Position numbers and translations under genes: made by a program. From NCBI GenBank assembly GCA_003228125.1, contig QGNP01000002.1, positions 1 to 64,000 of the forward strand: a DNA stretch of 64,000 nucleotides, read 5' to 3'. Within the stretch, counting starts at the first letter, position 1; the number at the start of each line of letters is the position of its first letter. This DNA comes from Chloroflexota bacterium (GTDB lineage: Bacteria > Chloroflexota > Dehalococcoidia > UBA2979). This document shows, one piece after another, positions 16,259-57,869 of the stretch. Under the pieces are notes generated by a model that saw only the letters and a program-made list of their open reading frames with translations, was not told where the DNA came from and did no database searches.

Positions 16259-16814
16259 ATTTTAAACTGTTCATTCCATTTTTTGCTCTTTGTTGGTTCA
16301 CCCATACTATTAGTCTCTTTTCTTTTAAAAGAAAAGAGACTAAATTTGTATTCGATATTCCCAATTTTTTTGAAATATTGCTAATGCCCCACTTATCATT
16401 ATTCATGAGATCAAAAATGAATGCACACATCGGTAAATAATTTTTATTACTAGAAGCATAGGACAATTTGCCATTGCTTAATGATCCATTTTTATTAAAA
16501 GCTTCAAATAAGTCAAAACTTTTAATAAAAATAATTAAATCAATACTTGAACGTAATTGGCACGTTATTTCTATTTTTAATTTCTTTACAGCACTTTTCA
16601 TATTCATATTCATGCTTCTATTTTCAGATGCAGAAACAACAATTGTAGTATTTTTCAAAGAAAGTCTGACAGATGATGCTTTTTTGTCACGATGCTGGCC
16701 ACCAGGCTTAGAAGACAAAAAATAATCTATATGACACATTTCTAACAATTTATCTTCATCAATCAAGAGTAAAAATGTCCAATTTTTTTCTTTGATTAAA
16801 TCTCTTTTTTGCAT
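16257..16814 (-). CDS. GGQ-motif peptide chain release factor-like protein with C-terminal HTH-like region
   Basis: SSKPGGQHRDKKASSVRLSL (RF-1 domain signature), ENRSMNMNMKSAVKKL; C-term WGISNISKKLGISNTNLVSFLLKEKRLI. Confidence 0.75.
   Translation of the reverse strand: MQKRDLIKEKNWTFLLLIDEDKLLEMCHIDYFLSSKPGGQHRDKKASSVRLSLKNTTIVVSASENRSMNMNMKSAVKKLKIEITCQLRSSIDLIIFIKSFDLFEAFNKNGSLSNGKLSYASSNKNYLPMCAFIFDLMNNDKWGISNISKKLGISNTNLVSFLLKEKRLIVWVNQQRAKNGMNSLK
16310..16343. repeat. 34-bp perfect palindrome (17+17, no spacer) inside a coding region
   Basis: TTAGTCTCTTTTCTTTT|AAAAGAAAAGAGACTAA, checked base by base. Confidence 0.97.
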
Positions 16815-54741: not shown

Positions 54742-55503
54742 TTATTTACCTTTAAATTTTGGAGATTTTTTATTAACAAATGAACTAATTCCTTCTACAA
54801 AATCATCTGTATCCTGAAGAATAAGCGTCCGATCATGTTCGGCCTTTAGCCCTGAAACCAAATTTAAACCAATCCCATTCTTTGAAGATTCTTTAATTAA
54901 ACGTAATGCAAGTGGAGCATTGGATATAATTTTTTTTACAAACAGAATAGTTTTTTTGTAAACTTCATCAGGCTCAAAAACTTCTGATACTAATCCAAAT
55001 TTATATGCATCTTGGGCATTAATTTTTATTGAAAATAACAAAATTTGTAAAGCTGCAGTTTGGTTAATGCACATAGGTAATCTTTCAATTGCCCCACCAA
55101 TTGGAATTTTTCCTTCAGATGATTCCGGCAAACATGCCAGTAGATCAGAACTTCCAATCCTAATGTCACATGCCAGGGCAATTTCAAAGCCAGAAGAAAA
55201 ACTTTTGCCCTTCATAATAAATATAGTAGGAATTTTTATTGCCATAATTGAATCAAAGGATACATCAGGAGTAAAAGATGGCTGTTCATAATGATTTAAA
55301 ATATTTTCATCCCAACCAATTCCACTATTTTGTAAAGCACTTAAAAAAATAACCGCTGAACAGCGGTTATTTTTTTTAATTTCATTGCAAACATCATTTA
55401 ATTCAATAAGAAATAACTTCGAGAATTTATCATCATGAAGCTTATATCTTACTACAGCATATTTGTCATAATAAATTAGATTTATAAATTTTTTTTCAGT
55501 CAT
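54742..55503 (-). CDS. Enoyl-CoA hydratase/isomerase family protein
   Basis: AVIFLSALQNSGIGWDENIL...IPTIFIMKGKSFSSGFEIALACDIRIGSSDLLACLPESSEGKIPIGGAIERLP. Confidence 0.82.
   Translation of the reverse strand: MTEKKFINLIYYDKYAVVRYKLHDDKFSKLFLIELNDVCNEIKKNNRCSAVIFLSALQNSGIGWDENILNHYEQPSFTPDVSFDSIMAIKIPTIFIMKGKSFSSGFEIALACDIRIGSSDLLACLPESSEGKIPIGGAIERLPMCINQTAALQILLFSIKINAQDAYKFGLVSEVFEPDEVYKKTILFVKKIISNAPLALRLIKESSKNGIGLNLVSGLKAEHDRTLILQDTDDFVEGISSFVNKKSPKFKGK
55343..55376. repeat. Terminator-like inverted repeat (16+2+16) inside a coding region
   Basis: AAAAAAATAACCGCTG-AA-CAGCGGTTATTTTTTT, checked base by base. Confidence 0.96.
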
Positions 55504-55618: not shown

Positions 55619-56389
55619 ATGGAAATAGCAATTAATGGATGTTCAGCAATAATTTCTGGTGGAACAAAAGGTATCGGCCTTGCAATAGCAAAATCTCTTC
55701 TTGATGAAGGAGTAAATGTGACTGTCTTTAGCCGCAATATTAAAAACTTACAAATAGCTAAAAAATTAACAACAAGTGTCTCTACAAATGCACATGCGCA
55801 TTTTATTCAAGCAGATATCACAAAAAATACTGACAGAAAAAAAATTATATCTCAACATTTAAAAAAATTTTCATCTTTAGATTTTTTAATTAATAATGCT
55901 GGGCAATCTATTAAAAATGGTAGTTCAGAATCAAAATGGACCCAATCATTCAATGTCAATGTTACTGCACATGCATTATTGACTGAATTAGCTCTGCCAA
56001 GTTTAGAAAAATCAAAAAATGGAGCAAGTGTAGTTAATATTGCATCTATTTATGGGAGAGAATCAGGTGGCAATGCTCATTACAATGCTTCAAAAGCAGC
56101 TATGATTTCTTTTTCAAAAACAACATCTAATTTATTAATAGCTAAAGGAATTAGAGTGAACAGTGTCGCGCCTGGATCAATATTGTTTCCAAATGGTTCA
56201 TGGGACAAACGAGTAAAATCCGAACCAAAAAAAATGAAAGATTTTGTTAAACAAAATATTCCTGCAGGAAGATTTGGTACAGTTGAAGAAATTGCTAATG
56301 TAGTAACTTTTCTTTTGTCTCCAAAATCATCTTGGATTGTTGGAGCTACAATAAATGTAGATGGAGGGCAATCAAAATCAAATATTTGA
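55619..56389 (+). CDS. SDR-family NAD(P)-dependent oxidoreductase
   Basis: AIISGGTKGIGLAIAKSLLDEG...DFLINNAGQSIKNG...YNASKAAMISFSKT...WIVGATINVDGGQS. Confidence 0.94.
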   Translation: MEIAINGCSAIISGGTKGIGLAIAKSLLDEGVNVTVFSRNIKNLQIAKKLTTSVSTNAHAHFIQADITKNTDRKKIISQHLKKFSSLDFLINNAGQSIKNGSSESKWTQSFNVNVTAHALLTELALPSLEKSKNGASVVNIASIYGRESGGNAHYNASKAAMISFSKTTSNLLIAKGIRVNSVAPGSILFPNGSWDKRVKSEPKKMKDFVKQNIPAGRFGTVEEIANVVTFLLSPKSSWIVGATINVDGGQSKSNI

Positions 56390-56418
56390 TTTTGATTGCC
56401 CTCCATCTACATTTATTG
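56349..56418. repeat. 70-bp perfect palindrome (35+35, no spacer) at the 3' end of the SDR gene
   Basis: CAATAAATGTAGATGGAGGGCAATCAAAATCAAAT|ATTTGATTTTGATTGCCCTCCATCTACATTTATTG, checked base by base. Confidence 0.99.
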
Positions 56419-56446
56419 ATATTATGCATTTATTAAGAGGTTACAA

Positions 56447-56884
56447 ATGAAATTTAGAAAAAATGATATTTTAGGAATCTTACTAGCTGCTTTTGCAGGT
56501 CCTGGTTTATTTCTAATCATAATTTCTGCATACGACCTATGGGATCACAGGCACACGCCATTACTTGGTTTTCTTGCAACTAATTTGGCTATTGGCGGAG
56601 CACTTATTGGTGCATTTAGTAGATATATAAAAAACATATACAGATTTATCTCATTAATTTTTATACTTTTACTATGCGTATTTATAGTTAAAATACTACA
56701 GTGGAGTGGCAATGAAGAATCCAATTTAAAATTACTTTTCATATGGATTGGATTAATTGATTTCTTAATATTAAATGTTATTGTTGGATGGGAATTTTTA
56801 AGTAATGGATTCGTGCCAGCCATGGATAGAAAAAATGAAAAAATACCTTCCCCAGACATTGCTACTGAAATTAATGAAGGTTAA
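56447..56884 (+). CDS. Integral membrane protein of unknown function
   Basis: 145 aa, about four hydrophobic segments. Confidence 0.6.
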   Translation: MKFRKNDILGILLAAFAGPGLFLIIISAYDLWDHRHTPLLGFLATNLAIGGALIGAFSRYIKNIYRFISLIFILLLCVFIVKILQWSGNEESNLKLLFIWIGLIDFLILNVIVGWEFLSNGFVPAMDRKNEKIPSPDIATEINEG

Positions 56885-56895
56885 AAAATATTAAT

Positions 56896-57843
56896 ATGTC
56901 AGAAGATTTAAACTACAATCGAATCTTTGCAAATCTTTTAACAGACTGGCTTAGTCTAAAATTTTTCAAAACTTATAAAGTAACTAAAGAGTTATCTGAG
57001 TCTAATAATTTTATTATTTCGCAAAGAAATAAACAATTTACACTATCAGTTTATCAGCTTTGGGACAGCAAGGATAATGACATAAATGAATTAGAAAAAA
57101 ATATTAATCAAAGCTCAGATACAGAACATAATGAAAATCATATAGTTTGGATGCCTAAGAAAACTGAATTATTTTTAAATCAAAATAATGAAACAATCAT
57201 TAAGAAGGTACGTCAAGGAGTTAAGGGTCTTGAATTTGGAGATTATAGAGAGATTAGAATTCCAATAGATATCACCCTTTCACAAACTGAAGAAGATGGA
57301 TCGTATGTCGCTATCAATGGTGGATTAAGTAAAATATGGACTAAGATTTCTAGTGGGGTTAAAGGTATTTATCAATTAGATGGAAGCAATTATGGTAGAC
57401 TACCTTCAGAAAAGGCTGAAGAAAAAATAATAATTGAAAAAATTCAAGAAGCATCAAAGCTATTAAATGTTGGCGAAGCTTCATTTCTAACTGTTGATGA
57501 ATATTGGCCAATCAATACAATTCAATCAACCAATAATAATGATAATAAAATAATACTAGCAACTGCTAATAAAGATTTTGATGCCACTAACGGACCGTTA
57601 ATCAGAAAAAAAATCAGAAAGATCTTTAAAGAATTTTCTGAAAAAAATATATCCAGTAATAATAACGATTTAAAAATAGTTTTCTTAGTAAATTCAAGCA
57701 CGCACGAAGATGAAGTTATTTCATCATCGCTAAGAGGGATTAATCCTGATTTTTATAAAGATATAGATTTAATACTTAGCATTAATTCTGGAACAATATC
57801 AATTTTAAATAAAAAAGACACCTTTAATTTAAATAATGACTAA
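56896..57843 (+). CDS. Hypothetical protein
   Basis: 315 aa ORF in consistent gene context; no recognised motif. Confidence 0.65.
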   Translation: MSEDLNYNRIFANLLTDWLSLKFFKTYKVTKELSESNNFIISQRNKQFTLSVYQLWDSKDNDINELEKNINQSSDTEHNENHIVWMPKKTELFLNQNNETIIKKVRQGVKGLEFGDYREIRIPIDITLSQTEEDGSYVAINGGLSKIWTKISSGVKGIYQLDGSNYGRLPSEKAEEKIIIEKIQEASKLLNVGEASFLTVDEYWPINTIQSTNNNDNKIILATANKDFDATNGPLIRKKIRKIFKEFSEKNISSNNNDLKIVFLVNSSTHEDEVISSSLRGINPDFYKDIDLILSINSGTISILNKKDTFNLNND

Positions 57844-57869
57844 ACATAATTTAAATAATAACTAAACAA
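57826..57869. repeat. 22-bp tandem duplication supplying the stop codons of both convergent genes
   Basis: AATTTAAATAATGACTAAACAT / AATTTAAATAATAACTAAACAA. Confidence 0.93.

Follow-up and report, generated by a model that had tools for sequence, protein, structure and literature searches.

The locus examined here raises the question of how a perfect 70-nt palindrome came to lie at the end of a protein-coding gene, and whether it has any function there. The window (the whole stretch of DNA analysed, 64,000 nt of contig QGNP01000002.1) belongs to a small, AT-rich Dehalococcoidia genome, here G000, which is a draft of 22 contigs and 84% complete. The palindrome occupies positions 56349-56418 of the window and consists of two 35-nt arms (left, 56349-56383; right, 56384-56418) that are 100% complementary with a 0-nt spacer, exactly as a sequence-only reading of this DNA had described. 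The base pair just outside the 70 nt is A/A and unpaired. The sequence is single-copy in the genome, its sole second match being its own reverse complement, and in a hairpin scan covering 1,102,599 of 1,106,751 bp it was the longest perfect hairpin (loop ≤12 nt) in the 1.10 Mb scanned. The runners-up had 28-nt arms with a loop of 6 and 25-nt arms with a loop of 10; the next spacer-free palindrome had 20-nt arms. The corresponding RNA stem is very stable (−53.2 kcal/mol).

The end of the SDR gene

The left arm is formed by the 3′ end of an SDR-family oxidoreductase gene (55619-56389, + strand; 256 aa; Pfam adh_short_C2, 1.9e-48), and the palindrome extends across the stop codon of that gene. 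As proposed from the sequence alone, this arm (+ strand) encodes the SDR C-terminus (INVDGGQSKSN), a motif conserved in 27 relatives. The right arm (+ strand) opens with the last sense codon, ATT, followed by the stop codon TGA (56387-56389, + strand), which begins 3 nt into the arm. It had been suggested that the right arm rewrote the gene end and supplied the current stop. The TGA does lie within the right arm, but only the codon changed: the SDR protein of all 27 relatives listed stops at an identical point beyond the VDGGQS motif (25 of them with an SNI-stop ending), and the position of the stop is therefore ancestral. With the C-terminus and stop position also the same in the sister genome described below, the idea of a rewritten gene end had to be given up. 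Judged from the aligned sequences, what the palindrome event swapped was the stop codon (TAA in the sister genome, TGA here) and untranslated bases, not the SDR protein end.

The next gene (56447-56884, + strand) encodes a hydrophobic protein of 145 aa with no Pfam match and is a conserved neighbour in the sister genome. Further downstream in the window, at 57825-57868, a 22-nt unit is tandemly duplicated (95% identical), spanning the end of a 315-aa ORF (56896-57843).

Comparison with a sister genome

A scan of genome contigs found one close relative only, a Dehalococcoidia MAG (record JAQWMB01; hereafter G001), in which an ortholog of the SDR gene (69% amino-acid identity) is likewise followed by one of the 145-aa gene. 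Around the palindrome the two genomes differ at about 26% of nucleotides. No palindrome was found at the G001 counterpart, whose fold (−12.4 kcal/mol) is no more stable than those of shuffled sequences. The flanks are collinear beyond both arms, and the spacing to the conserved downstream gene equals the orthologous spacing.

Within the arms the differences are directional. The left arm is identical to G001 at 29/35 positions, and the right arm is identical at 21/35 to its positional homologue, a G001 segment of equal length and in register. At each of the 14 right-arm positions that differ, G000 has the base that an inverted copy of the left arm would give, which supports the earlier view of an ancestral left arm and a right arm newly made as its inverted copy. 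The left-arm differences match the complement of the G001 right arm in 6/6 cases (permutation P 0.0034). Moreover, the G000 left arm pairs with the G001 right arm at 21/35 positions (P 0.00045), offset 0 being its best pairing register among 500 downstream offsets in G001. Arm complementarity within G001 itself is just 15/35 (P 0.06) and is unconvincing alone. The sequence-only reading had expected a relative to show an unrelated sequence in place of the right arm; instead, the G001 segment is of equal length, shares those 21 positions and is already partly complementary.

Origin of the palindrome

We interpret the palindrome as the scar left when DNA synthesis recently switched template and corrected a quasipalindrome, and put the probability of this reading at roughly 0.8. 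Besides the arm comparison, the reading draws on the poor fold of the G001 counterpart, on the surplus of spacer-free palindromes across G000 and the many CDS hairpins lacking in G001, and on the palindromes over the stop codons of tuf and an acyl-CoA dehydrogenase-like gene (see below). Three features served as tests of template switching: at 14/14 sites the differing arm carries the exact reverse complement of its partner; a prior imperfect inverted repeat is indicated at the same register (21/35 pairs); and the flanks are collinear, with equal length and a conserved next gene. Given the 14/14 and 6/6 patterns of difference in the right and left arms, the ancestor was probably a 21/35 quasi-palindrome. 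Because G001 is the one close relative, this ancestor is reconstructed from two sequences, and the polarity of the change is likewise read from G000 and G001 only. In the simplest history, the right arm was probably corrected to the left arm in the G000 lineage, and the G001 left arm probably drifted, mostly at silent sites. Template switching had been proposed before on sequence grounds, and the pattern of differences fits that proposal, but what the right arm replaced was not unrelated DNA.

In the proposed sequence of steps, the SDR gene end would have carried an imperfect inverted repeat of about 21/35 pairs, with paired runs at the centre, in the middle (AGGGCAA/TTGCCCT) and at the outer end (CAATAA/TTATTG). 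The nascent strand would stall and switch near the central AAATATTT, either by folding on itself or by jumping to the sister strand, would copy the 35-nt left arm backwards and would then return, through the outer microhomology, to its proper template. Fourteen mismatched bases would be replaced with the length unchanged, and for that reason neither the protein nor its stop position nor the gene downstream would be affected. We infer that this was a single event, that the mechanism was a polymerase one and that the outcome was neutral or nearly so; a single round and two or three rounds of template switching would look alike. With 0 mismatches in 35 pairs, divergence since the event is at most 8.2% per pair (95% upper bound), compared with the difference of about 26% from G001, so the palindrome is either recent or has been re-corrected.

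This kind of mutation is already known; the G000 case is unusually long and is one of many in its genome. Quasipalindrome-associated template-switch mutations of E. coli, as presented in PMC7202029 (citing Ripley 1982, Rosche 1997 and Seier 2011), resemble it in that copying one arm makes an imperfect inverted repeat perfect or closer to perfect. The reporters in that work involve an 18-bp quasipalindrome and a 4-bp correction, whereas here the arms are 35 nt and 14 bases were corrected; the reporter cases were also laboratory-selected, whereas the palindrome here is an evolutionary difference. Monttinen and Loytynoja (PMC8794818) described reverse-complement copying that makes a perfect stem in one event and leaves compensatory blocks, in RNA genes (rRNA, microRNA) rather than, as here, at the 3′ end of a protein gene in a bacterial genome. 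The locus is a clean case from nature, of greater size than those made in the laboratory, in which a long bacterial hairpin probably became perfect in a single event; one sister genome suffices to read its polarity and the ancestral quasi-palindrome.

Alternative explanations and function of the hairpin

It is improbable, in our estimation, that the palindrome is a functional hairpin (a terminator, an mRNA-stabilising 3′ element or an operon attenuator) assembled and maintained by selection acting through ordinary compensatory substitutions. Its position just past the stop codon, the region in which inverted repeats of bacteria are most frequent (PMC13155455), would suit such a hairpin, as would the stability of the RNA stem and some intergenic hairpins of G000 for which G001 retains hairpins with other stems (C8:18633 and C10:7680). 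Yet the hairpin is absent in G001, its 35/35 pairs without a spacer are far beyond the needs of termination, and most comparable hairpins of G000 lie inside genes. Nor is there a T-run past the stem: in the intrinsic terminator test, which sought one right after the full stem, ATATTATGCAT was found there instead, and what the terminator scan matched at 56360-56407 was the inner portion of the stem, with the outer stem serving as the tail. The earlier suggestion of a very strong hairpin or terminator accordingly stands as to the hairpin (−53 kcal/mol) but not as to a canonical intrinsic terminator.

A consensus scan returned a promoter-like pair, TTGCCC-18-TATTAT with TG before the second hexamer, at 56396-56425 (+ strand), straddling the right arm and its edge, from a class of matches no commoner than in shuffles; its G001 counterpart is TTGCCC-18-TAATAT. 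Its role as promoter of the downstream 145-aa gene is speculative. If that promoter is real, the preservation of TTGCCC and of the spacing would account for the switch being tolerated. We infer that the template-switch palindrome is nearly neutral and was tolerated as a scar, though it may affect mRNA incidentally; no dedicated function need be invoked. Its likely consequence would be an RNA stem of 33 bp lying between two genes of the same strand, with possible effects on mRNA decay or on expression downstream.

An artefact of assembly or amplification, with fold-back chimeric reads built into the contig, is very unlikely. Fold-back chimeras are known amplification by-products, and an assembly in 22 draft contigs might harbour one, but the sequence continues into the conserved downstream gene at orthologous spacing, unlike such a chimera. 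The six left-arm sites that match the complement of the G001 right arm also speak against an artefact, as does the excess of palindromes in G001, a separately named MAG. Least probable of all is a mobile or regulatory palindromic element (a miniature inverted-repeat element, a REP-like element or a protein-binding operator), which would fit the palindromic shape at a gene end; however, one arm belongs to the coding sequence of the adjoining gene, nothing was inserted, since the length equals that of the orthologous sequence without the palindrome, and a mobile or REP-like element was rejected on the single copy and the lack of length gain.

Stability and DNA repair genes

Long spacer-free palindromes had been described as normally unstable through SbcCD-type cleavage, which made the persistence of this one notable, and a search for sbcC and sbcD was suggested. 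Both genes were found side by side on G000:C12, SbcD by PF12320 and TIGR00619 and SbcC, of 896 aa, by AAA_23 and SbcC_Walker_B, so that persistence through SbcCD loss was rejected and need not be invoked. According to PMC4245961, the lower limit of hairpin cleavage by SbcCD in vitro corresponds to palindromes of 20-36 bp, its own chromosomal experiments use palindromes of 246-480 bp, and those investigated for toxicity in E. coli measure 246-460 bp. At 70 bp the present palindrome is above the quoted in vitro limit and far below the toxic sizes studied, and since it falls between these ranges its presence in an SbcCD-bearing genome is no paradox; for palindromes of exactly 70 bp, no data were found in the literature.

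RNase III (TIGR02191, PF14622) had no match in the G000 assembly. This is probably an assembly gap, because the whole G001 rnc neighbourhood is unmatched in the 84%-complete G000, and the gap led us to reject RNase III loss as a reason for tolerance of long RNA stems. The ExoI C-terminal domain (PF08411) was absent in G000, in all relatives searched and in 13/14 controls, and the ExoVII large subunit was present in G000. Across SbcCD, the ExoI domain and the ExoVII large subunit, no special repair defect was found in G000.

Palindromes elsewhere in the genomes

Spacer-free palindromes with arms of at least 14 nt numbered 13 in G000 and 4 in G001, compared with 0 in all six third-order Markov versions of each genome. 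Small controls, 200 kb of E. coli K-12 and 154 kb of the family member G007, contained none with a loop of 0-2; the trait is nevertheless not unique to G000, since small samples of other genomes held some. The G000 excess spans arms of 12-35 nt and is strongest without a spacer. In published surveys, bacterial inverted repeats are mostly intergenic and the commonest spacer is 4 bp (PMC13155455).

Perfect hairpins of G000 with arms of at least 13 nt and loops of at most 8 nt (n = 59) lay in predicted CDS in 34 cases and between genes in 18, while a further six overlapped a stop codon (about 2 expected) and one a start codon; these class counts are approximate because genes were called simply as longest ORFs. 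Among hairpins alignable to G001, 23/28 in CDS had no hairpin there, and 8/16 intergenic ones did. Genome-wide excess that includes coding DNA, ascribed to template switching, was reported by Ladoukakis and Eyre-Walker 2008, as cited in PMC4060949, for repeats of 6-9 bp in prokaryotic genes, whereas the arms here are 12-35 nt. Long perfect inverted repeats in protein-coding DNA are also described for Nematomorpha mitochondria (PMC6649704); those palindromes reach 284 bp, are mitochondrial and, unlike the G000 case, have both arms coding.

Another palindrome spans a stop codon as in the SDR case, in an acyl-CoA dehydrogenase-like gene. At the stop codon of tuf (EF-Tu), palindromes occur in both genomes, both derived from one conserved coding sequence yet centred differently (G000:C3:93912-93943, L056:13912-13943, 16-nt arms, no spacer; G001:C14:3159-3193, 17-nt arms, 1-nt centre), a comparison that hints at possible recurrent template switching at one site. 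The intergenic perfect hairpins at G000:C8:18633-18662 and G000:C10:7680-7709 are present in both species with largely different stem sequences, sharing the block-compensation pattern described for template switching (PMC8794818). We hold it doubtful, though conceivable, that unusually active template switching in this reduced Dehalococcoidia genus repeatedly rebuilds hairpins that survive preferentially at gene 3′ ends, palindromises the same gene end independently in sister species (tuf), re-makes some hairpins with new stems and is a main source of hairpins at 3′ ends. The genome-wide set, including the coding palindromes and the tuf pair, offers material to gauge how often bacterial hairpins are made or kept by template switching.

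Two further hairpins lie in the window. The second-longest spacer-free palindrome of the window, at 16310-16343, has 17-nt arms within a predicted 185-aa CDS, and its G001 version is imperfect. A perfect hairpin with 16-nt arms and a 2-nt loop lies at 55343-55376 in an enoyl-CoA hydratase-like CDS, and at its place G001 has a hairpin of different sequence with 9-nt arms and a 3-nt loop.
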